Source of the DNA: Bdellovibrionales bacterium
GTDB taxonomy: Bacteria > Bdellovibrionota > Bdellovibrionia > Bdellovibrionales > UBA1609
NCBI GenBank assembly: GCA_027459485.1
Contig: DAIDIG010000010.1
Coordinates: 1-64,000, forward strand
Direction of reading: 5' to 3'
DNA: 64,000 bases
Both the position numbers and the translations under genes were made by a program. Positions 1-18,099 of this stretch are shown one piece after another. How positions within the stretch are numbered: position 1 is the first letter of the stretch; every line of letters starts with the position of its first letter. Under the pieces are notes generated by a model. That model worked only from the letters and a program-made list of their open reading frames with translations, was not told the DNA's origin and did no database searches.

Positions 1-189
1 ACATAGCCGGAGTGCGCGCCGTATTTAACCGGTATTCGTATCTCAGCCGACAAAATTGAAATCACCTGTACAATAGTTTGTCATTTAAACCTATCGTCCG
101 TCTCATATTGAAACATTTCATTGAAATCCCTGTAAGAGCGGCGGGTTAAAGTTCATACTATATGAGTGCGCATCTTTTCGGGGGAGAAA

Positions 190-7480: not shown

Positions 7481-10264
7481 TTATAGATGGTAGTCTTTTA
7501 AATAGCGCCCCGTGATGCTTGCCCGTACTTTGGTCAAGTCTTCGGGTGCCCCTTCGGCGATAATTTCACCGCCGCCGTCGCCGGCGTCAGGGCCCATGTC
7601 GAGAATGTAGTCAGACGCGGCGATGATGTCGAGATTGTGCTCAATTAAAAGCACGCTCCCACCCGATTCAACCAGGCGATTGAGCACGCGAATCAGAAGC
7701 TGGATTTCACGAAAGTGAAGCCCCGTCGTCGGCTCGTCTAAGATATACAAGGTCGAGTCCTGATGCGATTGCGAAAATTCGCGGGCGATTTTGAGGCGCT
7801 GACTTTCGCCGCCGCTCAAGCTTCTGGCACTTTGCCCAAGACTTATGTATTCAAGCCCGACCTCTTTAAGAATAGAAAGCGGGCGTCGAATGTTCGGGTA
7901 ATTGACGAAAAAGTCCATGGCTTCAGCCACGGTCATAGACAAAATTTGGTGAATGTTTTTACCGCGATAAGTGATCTCGAGCACTTCGGGCCGAAATTTT
8001 TTGCCGTCGCACGCATCGCACGGGATTTCAATGTCATCCATGAACATCATGTCGATCACTTCAACACCGAGGCCCTTGCATACGGGGCATCGTCCCCCGT
8101 CGACGTTCAAGCTGAATGTACTCGGCGTATACGCCGCGACTTTAGCCTCTTGCGACGAGGCCATGACGGTGCGAATGGCGTCGTAAACTTTCATGTACGT
8201 CACCGGGTTACTTCTCGCCGTCGTGCCGATCGGCGATTGATCGATGAAAAGAACGTTTTTTAGATGTTGTGAGCCACTCAGTTTTTTATGCGGCAATGCC
8301 GGTAAAAACTCGATATTCAATTCGCGCGCAAGAGCGGGATATAGCGTATCGGAGACGAGACTCGATTTGCCCGAACCGCTGACGCCGGTGACTGTCACAA
8401 TCCGGTGAAGCGGAATGCGCGCAGTCACATTTTTGAGGTTGTGCCCTTTGCAACCCTCAACCGACACCACATATTTGTAATTTGAAATATTAACCGGTCT
8501 CACGGTTCGAAGCGGTGTCCACGGCCGATCGGGTTTTAAATACGGGGCCGTTGACGATTTCGGCGAGTCGTAAAATTCTTGACGAGAGCCTTGAAAAACA
8601 ATTTCACCGCCGAGGTGCCCGCTGCCCGGGCCCATTTCGAGGATGTGATTCGCATTGTTGATCACGTCGTGGTCATGCTCGACGACGACCAAAGTGTTAT
8701 CGAGTTGATTGAGTTTGTGTAAGACCTGAATCAATCGCTCGTTGTCGCGCGGGTGAAGACCGATCGTCGGTTCGTCGAGAACGTAGAGCGTTTGCGACAG
8801 GCCGACGCCCAATTGATTCGACAAATTCATTCGCTGAAATTCACCGCCCGACAATGTTTTTGTGGCGCGATCCAACGTCAAATACCCGATGCCGACATCG
8901 CTCAGATACTCGAGACGCGATACGATTTGCCGATAGGGTTCAGCGCAAATTTCGCGCTCGGCATCTGAAAGCTGAACGGTTTTCATGTGAGCTAAAAGTT
9001 CATCCGCCGTCATCGCGCAAAGGTCGGCAATTGTTTTGCCGTCAATTTTGACTTGCAACGCCTCGGGTTTGAGCCGACTGCCATGACAGTCGGGGCACTG
9101 GAACGGGCTTTTGTGTCGCGCCAAAAAAACGCGCACGTGCATCTTGTACTTTTTCGTCTCGAGGTATTCAAACAGACCCATGACGCCGAAAAAGTCGTCG
9201 TTCCCCCTCCAGATCTGGTCGCGCTGTTTAGATGGCAGATCTTGCCAGGCAGCGTGAAGATCGATGCCCACTTTCTTGCAATAATTAAAAAGAGCACGTC
9301 GATCTTTCGCCCCGCTCGGCATGGCGAACGGTTTGATCGCGCCCTCCGCGATCGACAAGCGCGGATTCGGTATCACCTTCGCCTCATCCACCGTTAAAAT
9401 GTTACCGAAGCCTTTACATGTGGGGCAGGCTCCCACCGGTGAGTTGAAGCTAAAAAGACTCGCGTGGATGTCGGGGAAGCGATACCCGCAAATATGACAC
9501 GAAACCTCTTCGCTCAAAAGGAGCCGGTCGCCTTCGGTCGTGATGGCTTCGGCGCGCGCAAAATTCAAATGCGTGTTGTATTTCAGCGAAAAGTGATACG
9601 CCTGCGTGACCGAGTCGACAATACGGCCGCGCTCGCTCTCTTCAAACGCCAAGCGATCGACCATAATATAAAAATCATCTTTGGGGAGTTTTGTTTTCGC
9701 GCTCAGCTCGTCAATTTTACCTTTGCGGTAGATTCGCAAAATGCCGTCTTGCAAAAGCTCGGCGAGAAGCCGCTTGTCTTTAAGTGAACGATGAGCTTTT
9801 GACACGGGCGCGAGCACATATCCGCGCCGCCCCAGGTACATTTCAAGAATTTTACTGGCGGCCCGAGTGGGCGGCTCTTTTTCAAGCTGCACACCGTGGT
9901 CGGGGCAAAATGCTTTACCGACCTTCTCATAAAGTAGCCGCAGAAAATCGACAATCTCGGTCGACGTGCCAACGTTCGATCGCGACGACTTCACGCTGTT
10001 TTTTTGCTCGAGCGAAATCGCCGGCGGGATGTTCTCGACACCTTCGACGTCGGGCTTGGGCGCCTTGTTTAGAAACTGCTTCGTGTAATTTGAAAGACTT
10101 TCGATGTAGCGGCGCTGGCCTTCGGCGTACAATGTTTCAAACGCGAGCGAACTTTTGCCGGAGCCGCTGGGGCCGCAAATAACCGTGAATGAACCGAGCG
10201 GGATTTTAACGTCGATCCCTTTCAGATTATTTTGTCTCACCCCCCACAGGTGAATTTCACTCAT
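7481..10264 (-). CDS. uvrA: UvrA, excinuclease ABC subunit A
   Basis: The 927-residue DNA-damage recognition ATPase of nucleotide excision repair, full length for the family. Two ABC modules are visible: Walker A GPSGSGKSSLAFETLYAEG near residue 31 with signature LSGGEFQRMNLSNQLG, and Walker A GVSGSGKSSLVSDTLYPA near 630 with LSGGESQRLKIAREFS. Both zinc-finger regions are present (CHICGY with CPTCKGFG; CPVCKGLG with CDACDGKKF). The ATG overlaps the stop of the upstream penicillin-binding protein gene by four bases, so the two are translationally coupled, an unusual pairing of repair and cell-wall genes. Confidence 0.98.
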   Translation of the reverse strand: MSEIHLWGVRQNNLKGIDVKIPLGSFTVICGPSGSGKSSLAFETLYAEGQRRYIESLSNYTKQFLNKAPKPDVEGVENIPPAISLEQKNSVKSSRSNVGTSTEIVDFLRLLYEKVGKAFCPDHGVQLEKEPPTRAASKILEMYLGRRGYVLAPVSKAHRSLKDKRLLAELLQDGILRIYRKGKIDELSAKTKLPKDDFYIMVDRLAFEESERGRIVDSVTQAYHFSLKYNTHLNFARAEAITTEGDRLLLSEEVSCHICGYRFPDIHASLFSFNSPVGACPTCKGFGNILTVDEAKVIPNPRLSIAEGAIKPFAMPSGAKDRRALFNYCKKVGIDLHAAWQDLPSKQRDQIWRGNDDFFGVMGLFEYLETKKYKMHVRVFLARHKSPFQCPDCHGSRLKPEALQVKIDGKTIADLCAMTADELLAHMKTVQLSDAEREICAEPYRQIVSRLEYLSDVGIGYLTLDRATKTLSGGEFQRMNLSNQLGVGLSQTLYVLDEPTIGLHPRDNERLIQVLHKLNQLDNTLVVVEHDHDVINNANHILEMGPGSGHLGGEIVFQGSRQEFYDSPKSSTAPYLKPDRPWTPLRTVRPVNISNYKYVVSVEGCKGHNLKNVTARIPLHRIVTVTGVSGSGKSSLVSDTLYPALARELNIEFLPALPHKKLSGSQHLKNVLFIDQSPIGTTARSNPVTYMKVYDAIRTVMASSQEAKVAAYTPSTFSLNVDGGRCPVCKGLGVEVIDMMFMDDIEIPCDACDGKKFRPEVLEITYRGKNIHQILSMTVAEAMDFFVNYPNIRRPLSILKEVGLEYISLGQSARSLSGGESQRLKIAREFSQSHQDSTLYILDEPTTGLHFREIQLLIRVLNRLVESGGSVLLIEHNLDIIAASDYILDMGPDAGDGGGEIIAEGAPEDLTKVRASITGRYLKDYHL

Positions 10265-13086
10265 TCCGATAAATCCTGTTTGTAAAAATCCTGTACGCGG
10301 TTGTCCGCATTATCCAGAGTCTTCTTTGGTTCTGTGCCCGAGATAAATGCCTGCCGGGCGATTTCCTTTGAACGAGGTGTTGCCAAAAGGCCGGTCTTGT
10401 TGTCAATGTTCGCGAATACAATTCCGTCCGGCACCGAAAAATCCCGCACCGGTAGGCCCTCGTGGGCATCTTTCATATAGCCGACCCAAATCGGCAACGC
10501 CGCTCGCGCGCCGACTTCGCCTTTACCAAGAGATGCGGCCTGATCATCGCCCACCCAGACCCCTGCCGCGATATCGGGGGTGTAACCCAAAAACCAGGCG
10601 TCGATGTAATCGTTCGTCGTACCCGTTTTGCCGGCAACGGGGCGCCCCAGCGCGCGCGCTCGCATGCCTGTGCCGCTATTCACGACTCCTTGAAGAAGAC
10701 TTGTGATCACATACGCGGTCTGGGGTTTGATCAGCTGATCCGGATCATCAAAAAAGATCGGCGATTCTTTGTCGGGATGAACGGCTTGTGGAGCGTTGGG
10801 CGCCGGCGCACCCGGCTTCGCTTGAGCCGTAGGCACAAGTTGCGGACTTGGCGAAGCTTCACCGCTTAGTGTGGCGTTGAATTTCGCAACGGCATCGGAG
10901 GCAGCCGTCAGGGCCGCCGAAGGGTCCTTCGGGTTAGCGATCAGCGCTTTGGTGTAAGCGAGATAGGCCACGCGGCGGCGAGCAAAATCGACTTCGAACG
11001 GCTTCATCTGAGCCTGAAATTTCTCGTCAAGCGAAACTGAACCGAGAATTTTTTCACCGTTTTTGTCATCCACCTGGTGGATGATCATCGGGCTCACGCG
11101 CCGACCGAGCTTGCCGAATTCGGCAAACACCTTGGTCATCTCGTAAAGCGTGACGCTACTTGAGCCCAGCGTGAGCGTATAATCTTGATTAAGCGGGCTG
11201 AAAATACCCAGTCGTCTTGCGTAGTCGATCGCAAGTTGGATGCCGATTTTCTCTAGAATCTTCACGCTCGGCACATTCATCGAATGGATAAGCGCGTTTC
11301 GAAACAACACATCACCTAAAAAATGGCGCGAGTCATCGCTCGGCGTCCAACGGTTTTCGAGCGTCTCGCTTTTTTTACCGTCTTGAACGGTTTGCTGCTG
11401 TTCAAACACAATCGGAGCGTCGGTGATTTGAGTCGCGGGAGTGAACCCTTTATCAAGAGCCGCTGCATACACAATGGTTTTAAAGGCAGAACCCGTTTGC
11501 CGCGAAGTTTGAAGCGTGCGATTGAGCTTCGACAAATTGAAGTCGTAGCCGCCGACCATGGTGATCACATCGCCACTTTTCTGGTCGAGCGCGAGAAGCG
11601 CCGCCTGCGTGACGGGCTCCTGTTCGAGTTGCACTTGCGCGTAGTGATTAAAATTCGGCAGGTTGCTCGGTCTTTTGTAACGCCGCTTTTCGCGCTGACG
11701 AAGTTTTTGAAGCGCGTCGCTGATTCGTTGTGACGAAAATTTAGAATCTACGACCTGAATCAAAATGACGTCGCCTTTTTTCAAAACCTGGCTCGGCGCT
11801 GTCGGGCCGGCGTCTTGGTTCATAAACACATTCACGTTCGGGTCGGGCTTTCGCGCCCACTTCATCGAATCAAAATCGATGAGACCTTTGGCCTCGGCAA
11901 ATCGCACGGTTACAAGCCCCCATTGGTCGTCGACCTTCATCACGACGGCCTTCATGCGATCCCCCACGTGAATGTAGTCGGGCAGCGTCCCGTCATCGTA
12001 TTTTGTCAGATTGAGCGGCGGCAGCGCGGGGAAGGTCCCATCCGGCTGCAAGATTTTGTACGGCTCTTCTTTTTCGATCACCGAGTTTCGCGTTTGAACG
12101 AGAATTTGTGCGATCTTCGCCGGATCTTCTTCATGACCAAGCGGGCCGCGATACCCTTCGCGCTTATCTAGATCGCGCAACCCTTGGCGCAACTCTTTTC
12201 GCCCCGCCATTTGTCGTTGAAGATCAAGGCTTGTGTACACTTTTAGCCCGTCGTCAAAAACCGCGGCTTCGCCGAGCTTTGACACCAATAATTGTTTCAC
12301 GGTTTCGAGGTAATACGGGGCTTGGTCTTCATCGGGGTGAATGTAAATCTTCACAGGTGCATTGAGGGCCGCTTGTTCGTCTTGCGGCGTGATCATTTTA
12401 TTTTCGAGCATTCGTTTTAAAACGTAGCGTTGACGCTCTTTCGCGCGACGAGGGTTGTGCACGGGGTTCATTTCAGACGGGCCTTTCGGGAGTCCCGCCA
12501 GTATCGCGGCCTCGGGCAGCGTGATGTCTTTCAAATCCGTGTCGAAATACGTTTTGCAAGCCGTCGCGACACCGTACGAATTCTGACCGAGAAAAATTTG
12601 ATTGAGATAAAGATAGAGGATGTCGTCTTTTGAAAGAGTCTTTTCCATCTCAAGCGCGAGAAGCATCTCTTTGATTTTGCGCGTGTAGGTCTTTTCATTC
12701 GACAGAAGCAGCGATCGCGCGACCTGTTGCGTGATGGTCGATGCCCCCTGCACTTTGCCGCCGGCGCGAAGGTCGACCAAAAGCGCGCGCAAATTTGCGA
12801 CAAGGTTGATGCCGCCGTGATGGTAAAACGACGCGTCTTCGGCGGCGAGAAATGCATTTCTCACAACCATCGGGATGTCTTTCAAGGGCACAAGCTCGCG
12901 GCGCTCAATCGAGTACTCGCCGATTTTTTTTCCGGTTCTATCGTAAACCTGCGTCACCAGAAGCGGCTTATAGTCATCAAGCGTAATCATGTGCGGCAGC
13001 TGGGTTTTCAGATAAAAAACGTAACCGGCCGCCGCACCGACGCCCAATAGACCCATAACCAACACAAGTGCGATGAACTTTTTCAC
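10261..13086 (-). CDS. mrcA: Class A penicillin-binding protein (PBP1A-like)
   Basis: A bifunctional murein synthase of 941 residues, on the long side for the family. It starts at GTG 13086 with GGGGAG six bases upstream. One N-terminal membrane helix (about 4-26) is followed by the GT51 glycosyltransferase domain with EDASFYHHGG and a GASTITQQVAR motif, then a linker with an OB-like region, then the transpeptidase domain with SAFK (active-site Ser), SMN and KTGTT. An insert of about 60 Ala/Pro-rich residues lies between the SMN and KTGTT motifs. It acts at the periplasmic face of the inner membrane and is coupled to uvrA downstream. Confidence 0.95.
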   Translation of the reverse strand: MKKFIALVLVMGLLGVGAAAGYVFYLKTQLPHMITLDDYKPLLVTQVYDRTGKKIGEYSIERRELVPLKDIPMVVRNAFLAAEDASFYHHGGINLVANLRALLVDLRAGGKVQGASTITQQVARSLLLSNEKTYTRKIKEMLLALEMEKTLSKDDILYLYLNQIFLGQNSYGVATACKTYFDTDLKDITLPEAAILAGLPKGPSEMNPVHNPRRAKERQRYVLKRMLENKMITPQDEQAALNAPVKIYIHPDEDQAPYYLETVKQLLVSKLGEAAVFDDGLKVYTSLDLQRQMAGRKELRQGLRDLDKREGYRGPLGHEEDPAKIAQILVQTRNSVIEKEEPYKILQPDGTFPALPPLNLTKYDDGTLPDYIHVGDRMKAVVMKVDDQWGLVTVRFAEAKGLIDFDSMKWARKPDPNVNVFMNQDAGPTAPSQVLKKGDVILIQVVDSKFSSQRISDALQKLRQREKRRYKRPSNLPNFNHYAQVQLEQEPVTQAALLALDQKSGDVITMVGGYDFNLSKLNRTLQTSRQTGSAFKTIVYAAALDKGFTPATQITDAPIVFEQQQTVQDGKKSETLENRWTPSDDSRHFLGDVLFRNALIHSMNVPSVKILEKIGIQLAIDYARRLGIFSPLNQDYTLTLGSSSVTLYEMTKVFAEFGKLGRRVSPMIIHQVDDKNGEKILGSVSLDEKFQAQMKPFEVDFARRRVAYLAYTKALIANPKDPSAALTAASDAVAKFNATLSGEASPSPQLVPTAQAKPGAPAPNAPQAVHPDKESPIFFDDPDQLIKPQTAYVITSLLQGVVNSGTGMRARALGRPVAGKTGTTNDYIDAWFLGYTPDIAAGVWVGDDQAASLGKGEVGARAALPIWVGYMKDAHEGLPVRDFSVPDGIVFANIDNKTGLLATPRSKEIARQAFISGTEPKKTLDNADNRVQDFYKQDLSE

Positions 13087-13204
13087 GTCAAACTCCCCGT
13101 TCTCATTGACGTTTCAGTCTATCACCGCCAAGAGACTGGGGCTATGAATACATTTTGTTCTCGACGCGCGCCATACGCGCTCACGATTGAGCGGTCGAGC
13201 TCTG

Positions 13205-14893
13205 CTATTTGCTAGTGCCGTTCGATGAGTGCGCGGCCGGCGTACTTGTCGAAGTGCTCGTCGGCGTGCTCTTCGACGTGCTTTGCGCCGACTGGCTGTC
13301 TTGAGTTGCCGATGGGCCTCCAAAATAACAATCGGCTGGGTCACCGCTCAAGTCATGGCATAATTTTGCGGCCTCACGTGAAGCCGGGTCGCTCGTGCAC
13401 TGCGCGAAATCTGCTGCGGCCGTAATAAGACTGTCGCCGTCACCCAAAAAGTTTTTCGGGTCTGAAACCGCCTTACTTTCCGCTTTTTTCGCTTTCAAAA
13501 TGCTCGAATTCGCCGCTTCGAGAGCGTTTAATTCCAGCTGTAGTTGGCCGATTTCTGAATTGACGCCGGCTTGGCCGTCCATTGAAATTTGCCCGACCGG
13601 GTCATTGAGCCCGTTATTCATATTCTTATGATCCGAAAGCATCGAGCGAATCATTTGCTGAACACTCTGCTGCACGCTTTGCATGCTCGCCCCGTTGTTG
13701 CCCATTAGCGCGTTCAGTTTGGTATCTTCTGCCTGCATTTTTAATTGATACTTTGATGCAATATTTTGAAGATTCTGGTTATGCTGCTGCGATAGTTGCT
13801 GCATCTCGGTTTGGTTTTGTTGCGAAAGGCTGACCTCTTGTTGTTCAACTTTTAGTATTTGGCTTTGATCGCTACTTATTTCGGTATTCGCTATTGTGAC
13901 GTTGATGTTTGCTTTGCTTTTAATCGATTCAACTTGGGCCTCGTAAGTAAGCGTTTGCAAACACGCCGCGTACTCGGCATAGGCGTAATTGCCCGCCCGC
14001 TGCTGAAGCGTGTTGCCGGCCTGATTCCACAAATCATTTTGCGTTTGTACTTTTAGCGTGCCTTGGCTGATGAGTTTGGTTCGGTCATTAATTCTCTTTT
14101 GAACTTGCCCGATCGCATACTGATAACACTTGTCAGCCGCCTTATTGAGATCATCCGTTTCTTGCGCTCGTATTTCTGTGATTTTAATGGTCTCGGCCTT
14201 TTCATTGGTTTCGAGCTGAGTCAGCTGGCCATCCAGTTTTTGTGCCTTTTTTTGCTGTTGTTTCGGGAGGGTTTGAGTCATCAGTTTTTGATATTGGCTA
14301 TTTTCGTTCGCCGTATCTTTCTGAAATTTGGCCTGCAACTGCTGCATCGTGTTTTTGATTTCATTCGCTTTCAGCGTTTTATCTTGAATTTGCTTTTTGA
14401 CTTTATCTATTTTTTTTTGATTCTTTGTGAGCTGTTTTCGCAACTTATCAAGGCCCGGGCCGCTCGCCGGGCAAGCGTCAATTTTGTCGATTTCGCTTTG
14501 CGAATACCCGCCGAAATCTTGCGCCGAATAATAATTCGTCGACGATGCGCTGTCTGTCGAATTCGAAGAGGTGTCGGTCGAATCACTGCTCGGGTGATTT
14601 GGGGGAACATTGGCGTTCGGGTCATTTTCGCACTTGTTGTAAGCGTCTTCGCACGCTTTATGTGCTAGCCGCCCGCATGCTGTGAAAAATTTCTTGGCCG
14701 CGGATTGATATTCTTCGGCGTATTGTTTGCAATAGTTTTGTTGATTTTGCCCGCCCATTCCTTTGGCGACATCTAGGGCGACAAGCTCTTTTAGTAGCTC
14801 ACTTGTCGAAACCTTTTGCTGACCGGCCGCATAGGTCGCTGCCGCAAGAAATGTCGAAAATCCAATGACCACCAATGTAAGAGTTTTAGTCAA
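13205..14893 (-). CDS. Exported Gln-rich coiled-coil protein
   Basis: No named family. I place the start at TTG 14893: GGGGAG lies eight bases upstream and the resulting N-terminus (KTLTLVVIGFSTFLAAATYA) is a normal signal peptide; the longer frame from 14914 adds seven residues before it. The product is about 562 residues: a Cys-containing helical segment (about 40-95), a Ser/Thr/Asp-rich linker, then a long heptad-like, Gln/Lys-rich region (about 140-460) that should be a coiled coil, and a Ser/Thr-rich end. Near the C-terminus DPADCYFGGPS resembles the DPSSC...GGPS element of the protein at 190-1737. It follows the TadE/G-like gene and may share its function. Confidence 0.75.
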   Translation of the reverse strand: MTKTLTLVVIGFSTFLAAATYAAGQQKVSTSELLKELVALDVAKGMGGQNQQNYCKQYAEEYQSAAKKFFTACGRLAHKACEDAYNKCENDPNANVPPNHPSSDSTDTSSNSTDSASSTNYYSAQDFGGYSQSEIDKIDACPASGPGLDKLRKQLTKNQKKIDKVKKQIQDKTLKANEIKNTMQQLQAKFQKDTANENSQYQKLMTQTLPKQQQKKAQKLDGQLTQLETNEKAETIKITEIRAQETDDLNKAADKCYQYAIGQVQKRINDRTKLISQGTLKVQTQNDLWNQAGNTLQQRAGNYAYAEYAACLQTLTYEAQVESIKSKANINVTIANTEISSDQSQILKVEQQEVSLSQQNQTEMQQLSQQHNQNLQNIASKYQLKMQAEDTKLNALMGNNGASMQSVQQSVQQMIRSMLSDHKNMNNGLNDPVGQISMDGQAGVNSEIGQLQLELNALEAANSSILKAKKAESKAVSDPKNFLGDGDSLITAAADFAQCTSDPASREAAKLCHDLSGDPADCYFGGPSATQDSQSAQSTSKSTPTSTSTSTPAAHSSNGTSK

Positions 14894-14928
14894 TGCTCGA
14901 TCTCCCCATATCAATTCGATACAGTTTT

Positions 14929-14934
14929 ATTGTA
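14929..14934 (-). promoter_or_regulatory. Weak candidate -10 box TACAAT
   Basis: TACAAT on the minus strand matches five of six positions of the sigma-70 -10 consensus and lies 35 bases before the TTG start of the coiled-coil gene, in an A-rich stretch. No good -35 element stands 16-18 bases upstream. It would give the gene its own promoter in the 131-base gap after the TadE/G-like gene. Confidence 0.25.
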
Positions 14935-15024
14935 GCTCCTTTTTTTTATGAAACGAAACACTGCCCTCGTTTTTGGCTGTTGGGCGTATCAAAATGAGAC
15001 GGGGCCGGACCAACGGCTGAACAG

Positions 15025-17268
15025 TTACCACGGCGGTTGATTCTGAATGGAGCCCGTCCCCGCGCCGCCGATCGGGATATTGCTACTCGTGAGCATTTGC
15101 TTTGACACAAGCTTAACCGAGTAGCCGCTGCGGCCGCCTTCTTCGATACACGCGCCCGGCGCAGCTTGCGAAAGCGTACTACTATAACTGCCGTTACCCA
15201 TGAGACTGTTCGGTATACCGCAACTGCCAAGACGGCTTTGCCCTGCCGAACTCATCGGGTCGGGCGGATAATTGCCATACGCGGCGTCGCCCACCCAACT
15301 TGTCAAAACATGTTGGGGAGCGACCACATGCCAAAAAGCCATCGGTGAATACACCGGCGAGTTGGCCGGCACCGGCCCGCCCGTCGAACCCGTCGTGCCC
15401 ATCACGTTTTCTTGCCCATTAGCAACTTTGATTTGGTCGATGACAGAAAACTCGGGCACAACTGAAGGTCTTTGCCCCATGTCGGCAAACGGTGCCAACG
15501 GCGTCGGCGAGTTCAAATATTTCATTCCGCTTACGAGATACGGCAAATACCGCTGCGGAAAATTCGGTTGAATCGAATAATAAGTGATGTCGAACAAATC
15601 CGGCGCCACGGCAGCGACTTCGTATGGGCGAATCATCGAAGTCTGTTGCGGCATATTCGTCGACGCACCCGGAATCTGATAGGGCCACGCGAGTCCGTCG
15701 TTGTCTTGGCCGGCGCCAAAATTATCTACATCCAAATAATCGTTAAAACTGGCGCGATAAGGCCCCATGTTGAAACTTAAGCCTTGCATTGATTCGTTCC
15801 ACAAAGCCGAAGACGCCCCCAACTGATCGCCGGGAAATCGCGAATAGTTCGGCACCAAATCTTTCGGCAGCCGTGAGTTCATCATGCCGCCTGAGGCAAG
15901 TCGTTGCGGCTCAAGTTGTAGCGGCGGGCCATCTGAGCCGGATTGCGCGCCGGTGCCCGAACCGCCACCCGTGGGTTGTGTCCAAGTTTGCCCGTACCAG
16001 GGCCCGATTGTGCCGCCGAAAGGCATGGCGTAAGCGGTCGCCGTGAGCTCAACAGCTCGATGAAAGAACGGAAAAAACAGTTCGCGCGGTTTTGATTTCG
16101 CCTGAACGGCGACATATGCCCAGTACCACGGGTTTTTTTCGACACCTAAATATAAACCGTTCGTGCCACTCGTCGCGACGGATGGCTCAGTGAGCGCTTG
16201 GACTTCGTGCAGAAGTTCTTGCACGTTGGCTGGGCCAAAGGTGCTGTTGAGCTGCGTTTGCGCCGTCGGCCCGGTCGGCAAGGTATATATCGCTTGCTCG
16301 TTGCCTTGGCTGGAACACGACCCCGACGACCCGATGAAGTTCTGATAAAATAGCGTAAAAAACACGTCGATGTCAGGCAGCCAAATACTCGGGGGAACAC
16401 CCTGCAAACTATTAAATACCTGAAGCCCTTGCGGCCCCTCAGCCTGAAACCCGGTCAGATTCGTCGAAGTGAGATTTTTAATCAAAGTTTTGTAGACGCC
16501 CGTATACACGCTGCCGGGTGGCTGATTGGCTAAAATGGCTGGGTCCATGATGTCGACCATCGAACTTTGCGTTTGGTCGATCGGCTGAGCGAGATTGTTG
16601 GCGAGCGCGTGAATGAGCTTCATCCGCTCTTGCGCCTCGAGCGCGTACGAAACAAAAATCGTGGCGGCATACCACCAATTATAGGCGGCGTAGGAATCGC
16701 ATGTTTGCGCGATTTGCGTGTTAATTTGTTGCGCGAACGCTTGATAAGCCTCAGTAAACGGCAGAAACGGAACCGAAAATGTCGGCACCGGCGCGTTCGG
16801 AAATTGAAAATCCGCACAATGGCAACCGTTGTCATTCACTTGACTCCAGAGCGGGTAAATCACACAGAGTGGCGGTGGTGACCCGTCGCGCGTAATGCTC
16901 GCCCAAAGGTCGGTTTCTGACGGCGGTACTTGCTGAACGCTCAGCGGACAAACCTGGGTAGAGGAAGAATTACCGGTCACGGCATCACGACTCATATTGC
17001 CCAAATAGTAATACCGAAAGTTCAGAAGCTTCCACGCCTGGCGGATTTGGTAATTCGTGTGCGCGATGGCGTCTAGTATTTCGGCTTGCTTGCCCGCGGC
17101 GTAATAAGCCGCAAGGTCGGCGGCGTTTTGCAAATTGATTTTATCGTGCACGACGAGCGCAACGTTGATCGCCATTGCAAAAAAAATGAAGAGGACTTGA
17201 AAAATCAAGGCCACGAATATGGCCATTTGGCCGTTTCGATTAGTAATTTTTGACAAGGTGTCGCGCAT
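15025..17268 (-). CDS. TadE/G-like pilus-assembly-type membrane protein
   Basis: A 747-residue protein whose first 70 residues fit the N-terminal domain of TadG-type Flp-pilus proteins: a short basic end with NGQMAIFVALIFQV, one hydrophobic helix (about 14-36) and then NLQNAADLAAYYAAGKQAEI. In known Tad systems such proteins sit in the inner membrane with a large periplasmic part. The remainder (about 70-747) is Pro/Gly/Gln-rich with scattered cysteines and no domain I can name. No other Tad gene (TadA ATPase, RcpA secretin, Flp pilin) is in the window, so whether it makes a pilus is open. It is transcribed ahead of the exported coiled-coil gene. Confidence 0.75.
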   Translation of the reverse strand: MRDTLSKITNRNGQMAIFVALIFQVLFIFFAMAINVALVVHDKINLQNAADLAAYYAAGKQAEILDAIAHTNYQIRQAWKLLNFRYYYLGNMSRDAVTGNSSSTQVCPLSVQQVPPSETDLWASITRDGSPPPLCVIYPLWSQVNDNGCHCADFQFPNAPVPTFSVPFLPFTEAYQAFAQQINTQIAQTCDSYAAYNWWYAATIFVSYALEAQERMKLIHALANNLAQPIDQTQSSMVDIMDPAILANQPPGSVYTGVYKTLIKNLTSTNLTGFQAEGPQGLQVFNSLQGVPPSIWLPDIDVFFTLFYQNFIGSSGSCSSQGNEQAIYTLPTGPTAQTQLNSTFGPANVQELLHEVQALTEPSVATSGTNGLYLGVEKNPWYWAYVAVQAKSKPRELFFPFFHRAVELTATAYAMPFGGTIGPWYGQTWTQPTGGGSGTGAQSGSDGPPLQLEPQRLASGGMMNSRLPKDLVPNYSRFPGDQLGASSALWNESMQGLSFNMGPYRASFNDYLDVDNFGAGQDNDGLAWPYQIPGASTNMPQQTSMIRPYEVAAVAPDLFDITYYSIQPNFPQRYLPYLVSGMKYLNSPTPLAPFADMGQRPSVVPEFSVIDQIKVANGQENVMGTTGSTGGPVPANSPVYSPMAFWHVVAPQHVLTSWVGDAAYGNYPPDPMSSAGQSRLGSCGIPNSLMGNGSYSSTLSQAAPGACIEEGGRSGYSVKLVSKQMLTSSNIPIGGAGTGSIQNQPPW

Positions 17269-17310: not shown

Positions 17311-18099
17311 ATGAAATTTTCGTACCGGCAAATAGTCCTGCTTTGTGGTCTCTTTATCTCGACAGCGAGTCTGGCGCGCAAAAGCGCGCCTAGCGCTTCG
17401 ACAAAACCAGCCTTCGAAGCATACGAAAAGTTTGTTTTAGGGGGCGAACACGCGGGCTATGCGATTCAGCGCTACACATTCGACGCTCAACATAAGACCA
17501 TCACGTCCATTTCATACACATATGTGAAGGCGGGGAGCCATAAGACAATCGAAAGTCTCGTAGCCAAATCCGATCTCAATTTCGAACCGATCAGTTATCA
17601 ATATACGGCGCTCGTTGACGGCAAGCCGGTACTAATCAATGCGCGTTTTCACAATAAAAAAATGACGGCGATTGAAATCAACGGCAAGAAGAAATTGAAA
17701 CTCACGGCAACCGTGCCGAAAAACGGGTTTTTGTCGACGTTTCTCAATTATGTGCTTTTAAAAAACGGCCTGAGTGTCGGCAAGGCCTATAAGTTCTATG
17801 CAATGGCCGAAGAAGACGGCAAATTCTTAGAGGGTTCAGCGCAGATTTTATCTGAAACCAAAATCAAAAACGTGCCGGCTTATAAAGTAAAATTTCATTA
17901 CAAAACGGACTTTGTGTCACTTTTGTCGAATAAAGGCGAGCCGCTCGGCACGCGCTCAGACGCTCAAGACGCCAGTACCGAAATCTCGCCGAAGGCCGCG
18001 GCGATCGACGGCATACCGTTCAACGAGGGGCAGATTAAAAAGCTTTTCGGCAATATCCCTGACGGAGTGATCAATCAGATTTACCCTTCTAAGGGCTAG
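17311..18099 (+). CDS. Exported protein of unknown function, DUF3108-like in appearance
   Basis: A 262-residue protein with a signal peptide (first 22 residues, ending SLARK or nearby). The start ATG 17311 has AAAGG eight bases upstream. The mature part is all-beta in character with repeated short strands such as VLGGEHAGYAIQRYTFD and KFYAMAEEDGKFLEGSAQI, which recalls periplasmic proteins with a DUF3108- or LolA-type open barrel; this comparison is from general pattern only. No catalytic motif is evident. It is divergent from the TadE/G-like gene, 42 bases away, so the two may share regulatory DNA. Confidence 0.7.
   Translation: MKFSYRQIVLLCGLFISTASLARKSAPSASTKPAFEAYEKFVLGGEHAGYAIQRYTFDAQHKTITSISYTYVKAGSHKTIESLVAKSDLNFEPISYQYTALVDGKPVLINARFHNKKMTAIEINGKKKLKLTATVPKNGFLSTFLNYVLLKNGLSVGKAYKFYAMAEEDGKFLEGSAQILSETKIKNVPAYKVKFHYKTDFVSLLSNKGEPLGTRSDAQDASTEISPKAAAIDGIPFNEGQIKKLFGNIPDGVINQIYPSKG

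Follow-up and report, generated by a model that had tools for sequence, protein, structure and literature searches.

A large TadG-type minor pilin and two conserved exported partners as candidate tip components of the Tad pilus in Bdellovibrionales

Background

Prey recognition and entry of the Bdellovibrio type require the Flp/Tad pilus, the tip of which is not defined experimentally in the parts of the literature cited here. We describe a stretch of 64,000 nucleotides from a Bdellovibrionales genome (assembly GCA_027459485.1, contig DAIDIG010000010.1, positions 1 to 64,000; the window), which encodes a TadG-like protein of 747 amino acids (aa), hereafter TadG, and two exported proteins, designated P1 and P2. 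With a probability of about 0.6, we propose that TadG is the large tip minor pilin, of the TadG/KilN/CpaL type, of a single Kil-like Tad pilus, and that P1 and P2 engage the prey at that tip. The analysis thereby puts forward a candidate tip protein of nearly universal occurrence, together with the genes of two partners.

Kil systems have been reported in Myxococcales, Bdellovibrionales and Bradymonadales, and in 2021 TadG was listed among the components missing from them (PMC8460266). In Myxococcus xanthus, the Kil tips are the minor pilins KilLMN (PMC12075869). The same report predicts a Bdellovibrio bacteriovorus tip by structure (Fig. 7b, Suppl. Fig. 25), for which the sections cited here name no genes, and those sections report structural but not sequence-level tip homologues beyond myxobacteria; its section 8 describes a KilN4 head that has no PDB homologue and KilN1-3 clusters that are separate from the main locus. 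In Caulobacter and Aggregatibacter, the large minor pilin CpaL/TadG is predicted to be at the tip together with two small minor pilins, and the consensus of the minor pilin cleavage site is G/A-x4-F/E (PMC12607857). The flp genes of B. bacteriovorus are needed for predation and its TAD operon is bd0109-0119 (PMC5430801), with the hit locus at Bd0108-Bd0109 (PMC3818213). The parts of PMC5430801 cited here treat the machinery and the Flp pilins; the words TadE and TadG are absent from them and P1 and P2 are unnamed.

The TadG described here resembles KilN, as far as published, in being a minor pilin of large size that combines a pilin-type N-terminus with an extensive distal domain lacking a PDB homologue, in having a conserved stem and a variable head, and in accompanying a Kil-like Tad machine in a predator, with tip genes that can sit outside the main locus. 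It differs in that the TadE/F genes are in the tad locus and TadG is elsewhere, beside P1 and P2. The likeness to CpaL lies in the G/A-x4-F/E site and the large exposed domain.

A large exported adhesin and sensor is also carried on a minor-pilin tip in type IVa pili, as PilY1. That tip, discussed in PMC12607857, resembles the arrangement proposed here in its way of working; the pilus class is different, and the two are likened by function, not by sequence.

A single conserved family of TadG-like proteins

The window (G000:C10:1-64000; G, C and L numbers designate genomes, contigs and loci) is part of a source genome of 2.75 Mb in 34 contigs. It was compared with 59 related Bdellovibrionales genomes, of which 45, at least 90% complete with low contamination, are referred to as good, and with a phylum sample of 191 genomes. 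Stretches of ~20 kb around TadG were fetched from the relatives and their open reading frames (ORFs) clustered. Alignment A1 of TadG has 45 rows, with the window sequence added as row 1; five cut, duplicate or wrongly started sequences (WIN, L115, L109, L155, L102) were left out. A single sequence scan of genome contigs gave two relatives, both uncultured Bdellovibrionales, and NCBIfam and PHROGs returned nothing usable.

The initial annotation, made from the sequence of the window, had described a protein with a TadG-type N-terminus and a periplasmic part of over 650 residues, encoded next to an exported Gln-rich coiled coil, and suggested that these and two distant exported proteins could form one surface system. 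Both ORFs exist, at 15025..17268 (747 aa) and 13205..14914 (569 aa), on the minus strand. The N-terminus of the 747-aa protein does match PF13400 (residues 13-58, E 5.3e-9), with a weak match to PF07811, and the distal part of more than 650 residues is folded in an AlphaFold2 model (predicted local distance difference test, pLDDT, 82.1; predicted template modelling score, pTM, 0.87). The protein has a Tad N-terminal helix, a second long helix and a distal domain of beta structure and loops, with six Cys residues kept in 38 to 45 of the 45 rows of A1. As judged from the alignment, TadG conforms to the prepilin peptidase motif G/A-x4-F/E ahead of a hydrophobic helix; G13 is present in 45/45 rows and Q14 and F18 in 44/45 each, so that the G-x4-F motif (G13 to F18, 17215..17232, minus strand) is kept in 44/45. 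Fold comparisons gave no PDB match, with 13 entries for the model in a Foldseek search of the PDB, none at E <= 0.001, a best Z of 3.3 in VIA-align to a ZorA chain, a long-helix similarity that was not used, and 0 matches when the PDB was searched with the TadG sequence profile. CpaL has a vWA domain with a metal-ion-dependent adhesion site (PMC12607857); here no match to a vWA domain was obtained by Pfam or fold searches, a negative that does not exclude such a domain.

TadG is matched in 55 of the 59 relatives and in all 45 good genomes, and the four misses (G003, G005, G013, G016) are each less than 90% complete. PF13400 matches 53/59 relatives, at a single place in each except for two in G019, and every such place, compared by eye, falls within a TadG match; TadG is the sole PF13400 gene family of the 59 relatives. 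The second TadG-like gene of G019 (G019:C15:41-1288), partial at a contig end, might be an alternative tip. Across the phylum, the A1 profile matches 174/191 genomes. Most genomes of the order show a full-length match; outside the order, among the matches listed, most cover only the first ~200 profile positions, in ORFs mostly of 500-970 aa, which points to a conserved stem with a changing head.

Tad machinery of the source genome and its relatives

The initial annotation had noted that no ATPase, secretin or pilin is near. This agrees with the window proteins scanned (part of the genes in the 64 kb), which include no Tad ATPase, secretin or pilin; all are on contig G000:C6. Tad genes elsewhere in the genome, which it had thought would lend support, are a general feature, with RcpC present in all 59 relatives. 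In the phylum sample, TadG is matched in 174/191 genomes and RcpC in 187/191, with both in 172.

The tad locus of the source genome (L164) encodes a Flp-like pilin, a prepilin-peptidase-like ORF, two TadE/F-like pilins, RcpC, the RcpA secretin, a TadZ-TadA fusion, TadB, an RHS/DUF6531 protein and a small exported protein; Pfam supports RcpC, the secretin, the T2SSE ATPase and T2SSF. It contains no large TadG. Of 20 fetched tad loci, 19 yielded RcpC in a blastp search; in each of them two pilin-like ORFs directly precede it, and no large TadG is present among the displayed genes. With this protein missing from the tad loci examined and present elsewhere, the window protein is the natural candidate. 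In G006, G040 and G046, TadG is ~10-12 kb from rcpC. PF04964, the Flp family, matches in 37/59 genomes, over the cut-off in 3, and in the source genome not at all; a Flp-like ORF is nonetheless visible there by eye.

The machine is the same as that of the B. bacteriovorus hit locus and TAD operon, as far as these are described, with the tad genes followed in the source genome by the RHS gene and that of the small exported protein. These two proteins (L164:14482-16481), the RHS/DUF6531 one Bd0109-like and the exported one, of 105 aa, Bd0108-like, are encoded directly after the tad genes, so that the hit locus is conserved in this genome. The fusion of TadZ and TadA, ParA-like plus T2SSE (L164:11256-13538), has similar ORFs of 720-770 aa in many relatives.

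P1 and P2 are probable partners of TadG

P1 (166..1737, plus strand; profile A3) is an exported Cys-rich helical protein with a long Gly-rich linker and a C-terminal signature, and P2 (1750..2721, plus strand; profile A2) an exported Gly-rich protein with the C-terminal signature IGVxxDNIFxMIxRRY. Neither belongs to a Pfam family. Searches with single sequences detected P1 in 18/59 and P2 in 32/59 genomes, and profiles raised these counts to 52/59 and 56/59, with 40/45 and 44/45 of the good genomes; the count for P1 is an upper estimate that includes weak or partial matches and some cross-matches to the C-terminus of P2 (for example G002:C359). The co-occurrence expected by the initial annotation holds for TadG, P1 and P2 (55, 52 and 56 of 59) and fails for the coiled coil, detectable by sequence in 4/59 genomes and linked to a PBP1-type gene.

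Distances were counted with one TadG place per genome, P1 places tabulated for 36 genomes and the C-terminal fragment used where TadG is split (G028, G031, G047). Of the 55 genomes with TadG, 31 have P1 or P2 on its contig at a distance of no more than 6 kb, P2 in 30 (27 on the same strand) and P1 in 25, and the two are within 6 kb of each other in 32 of the 36 tabulated genomes that have both. Several of the other 24 genomes have contig ends between TadG and P1 or P2, and in the window it is an inversion that places them beyond this distance, so that it too is scored as a miss. In G026 (P1-P2-TadG) and in G042 and G052 (P1-P2 convergent to TadG), the trio stays adjacent despite a rearranged order. 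TadG, P1 and P2 are a real conserved set, with P1 and P2 as probable partners of TadG.

P1 is built of a Cys-rich helical domain that a disordered Gly-rich linker joins to a C-terminal helix; its structural model is poor (pLDDT 59.1, pTM 0.34) and was used for gross architecture only. About 44 C-terminal columns are common to P1 and P2 (hhalign probability 95.7%), and with a hidden Markov model of the P2 C-terminus, P1 C-termini are among the next matches, most of them individually weak. P1 paralogues are multi-copy: a genome can have several, G029 as many as 7, and some are arranged as tandem pairs or triplets. Three (L205:7094-11554) and two (L207:7567-10691) tandem Cys-rich exported paralogues are encoded beside flagellar genes, with near-identical C-termini ending ITGPHSNIWxKIQNRY. 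Stand-alone tandem paralogues, near flagellar and other genes, carry the same C-terminus as P1. An exported putative zinc metalloprotease (HELGHAFGLCD; L032:11401-12243) adjoins P1 in same-genus genomes, also in L151 and L153; none is beside P1 on the window contig.

Gene order and a probable inversion

With arrowheads giving direction, the recurring gene order is NagZ< (two transporter genes<) DUF3108-like< TadG> P1> P2> NTP-transferase< APH< x< sigma54 activator< UvrA< PBP1< coiled coil<. It is complete on one same-genus contig, G004:C20 (L032, L184), which reads NagZ< DUF3108< TadG> P1> P2> NTPT< APH< x205< sig54< UvrA< PBP1< COIL<, and is split over two contigs in G001. In the window these genes recur with a block of at least 14.9 kb, reaching from P1 to the coiled coil, inverted, and this inversion is the reason why the coiled coil abuts TadG and P1 and P2 seem distant, at the contig start.

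The coiled coil has thus probably been brought beside TadG by a single chromosomal inversion of at least 14.9 kb. Relative to G004:C20, the junction of coiled coil and TadG is at 14915..15024, and positions 1..165 are near the other breakpoint at the contig end, window base 1 being the start of G000:C10. Beyond the coiled coil in G001, G002, G004 and G015 is an xseA-type gene; in G005 (L152), of the same genus, P2 is beside that gene, the arrangement that an inversion of this kind should leave at its second junction. The P1 of G005 is on another contig, and the second breakpoint may differ in detail. No inverted repeat was found at the breakpoints. Judged by the window alone, the inversion may be an assembly artefact, against which the junction of the xseA-type gene with P2 in G005 argues. 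An inversion can in this way make a misleading 'operon' next to a conserved gene.

Probable counterparts in B. bacteriovorus HD100

Coordinate 97049 of HD100 is inside bd0108, at c.127 (PMC11323537). In G117 it falls in a 101-aa ORF, at gene base 130, with the RHS gene and the tad genes next, and given this match we take G117 to be HD100. TadG (131949-134168), P1 (134263-135723) and P2 (135732-136742) are encoded there in a row. Counted from MotA as Bd0144, they would be Bd0148, Bd0149 and Bd0150, tags that we infer rather than assign because counting raw ORFs falls at least two tags short.

The Bd0149 mutation described in PMC11323537, c.767G>T, replaces G256 by V. Residue 256 is Gly (GGT) in the P1 of G117, in keeping with that change, and is Asn in TadG and Trp in P2; one other of 14 sufficiently long genes also has Gly. 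Bd0149 is reported as mutated in biofilm-forming host-independent strains. Bd0150 is reported as needed for attachment and killing, with Bd0150::tn scored attach-, kill- and round-, like the TadC mutant Bd0470 (PMC6561027, Table 2). The bd0149 promoter has served as a native promoter (PMC12622784), the parts of PMC12034629 cited here do not mention Tad, and Bd0148 is not named in the literature found by search. Two orphan HD100 genes, Bd0149 and Bd0150, would in this way be tied to the tip protein.

Proposed mechanism and alternatives

As a tip pilin, TadG would use its N-terminal pilin segment to insert into the inner membrane, the prepilin peptidase encoded in the tad locus would presumably process it after G13, and its alpha-1 helix would bundle with the two small TadE/F-like pilins of that locus in a complex such as those of KilLMN and CpaJKL. 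The tip could prime Flp polymerisation by the TadZA/TadB motor and exit through the RcpA secretin, exposing the disulfide-bearing distal domain to prey. P1 and P2, exported proteins with a shared short helical signature at the C-terminus, would dock on or next to the tip and enable it to bind or engage prey. The coiled coil has no part in this.

Several points weigh against this proposal. TadG is encoded outside the Tad operon, on C10 of the source genome vs C6 for the tad locus, and across the phylum its association with RcpC has a Fisher p of 0.04, 15 genomes having RcpC and no TadG match and 2 the reverse. P1 and P2 are linked more tightly to each other (32/36) than to TadG (31/55), are together away from it in 8 genomes, and are both without a match in G024, which has TadG and RcpC. 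As nearly everything is conserved in the order, co-occurrence is weak evidence, and as a dozen unrelated genes (NagZ, MurU/AmgK-like, UvrA) are syntenic too, adjacency alone proves little. The Pfam and fold searches gave no vWA domain, and the Bd tags depend on the MotA anchor and one residue check.

The long gene order that takes in unrelated genes, the 8 genomes with a detached P1-P2 pair, the stand-alone tandem P1 paralogues near flagellar and other genes and the lack of both proteins in G024 would fit a reading in which TadG is the Tad tip pilin and P1 and P2, as envelope or adhesin proteins with no relation to it, stay near through the general synteny of this chromosomal block. We consider this unlikely, though it deserves serious weight. 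Against it, the trio stays adjacent in the rearranged G026, G042 and G052, and attachment depends on Bd0150, provided that the tag is correct, just as it does on tadC (PMC6561027). That TadG, P1 and P2 are instead a separate surface or secretion platform, with the Tad-type N-terminus a mere membrane anchor and no Flp/Tad machine involved, is distinctly improbable; the location outside the tad operon and the 2/191 genomes with TadG and no RcpC are in its favour, but the G-x4-F prepilin motif is kept in 44/45 rows, the tad locus is without any other large TadG and RcpC is present in 59/59 relatives. The suggestion of the initial annotation, by which all four exported proteins including the coiled coil are one unrecognised surface machine, drew on adjacency in the window, the exported appearance of all four and a superficial Cys motif. 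It is barely credible, as 14 of the 15 testable genomes have the coiled coil upstream of the PBP1-type gene, its adjacency to TadG is due to inversion and the motif is not conserved; three of the genes do recur together, and the coiled coil was the wrong fourth member.

Within the proposal that TadG forms the tip, a more speculative extension, on balance doubtful, is that P1, P2 and the P1 paralogues are exchangeable prey-binding heads or cargo, with variable Cys-rich bodies on Gly-rich tethers and a shared short docking helix at the C-terminus recognised by the TadG tip. The tentative consensus of that helix is FLPGG...RGLAG...ITG..S-W/F-EKI..RY. Were this so, the pilus of Bdellovibrionota would act as a launcher whose tip adhesins can be swapped, and prey range would have a modular genetic basis.

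Neighbouring genes

The gene divergent to TadG (17311..18099, plus strand; ORF cluster 2, 41 loci) is DUF3108-like and conserved in the order, and is probably not a functional part; its G117 equivalent matches PF11306 at E 9e-4, below the cut-off.

The exported coiled-coil protein (13205..14914, minus strand; TTG start) is Gln-rich, as first described (Q 12%), and has no Pfam family. It had been likened to P1 by the motifs DPADC...GGPS and DPSSC...GGPS. The letters are present, but GGPS is absent from the nearest relatives of P1 (A3), with CNNPSACLLNSNSASQ at the site in the 54%-identical L151 and CGNPASCITSDPSTDAE in L032, and the P1 profile had no match at E <= 1 to the coiled coils of the window, L145, L146 and L150. 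We reject the motif as a sign of homology; the resemblance is most likely due to chance.

In the window, 118 bp separate the coiled coil from the PBP1-type transglycosylase/transpeptidase gene (10261..13086, minus strand; PF00912 E 1.3e-62, PF00905 E 5.5e-23). Among 20 loci viewed upstream of the latter, PBP1 was located in 17, and 15 genomes were testable once L191 (edge) and L185 (same contig as L150) had been left out. Fourteen of them have a same-strand ORF of 460-600 aa directly upstream of the PBP1-type gene and not beside TadG, with gaps of 76-241 bp (667 bp in L184); in the fifteenth, L193, the upstream region is cut by the fetched stretch. By blastp at 1e-4, the window coiled coil is similar in sequence to those of only five genomes (L145, L146, L150/L185, L036, L184); the others count as equivalents on position, length and composition alone. 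The coiled coil belongs with its natural neighbour, the PBP1-type gene, and not with TadG, of which it is rejected as a partner, and the recurrence of the pair across relatives marks it as an exported protein that evolves fast and is linked to a cell-wall enzyme of the PBP1 type. The pair (window 10261-14914), a coiled-coil/Cys protein with a PBP1-type enzyme, is found across the order and may include a cell-wall synthase partner in predators.

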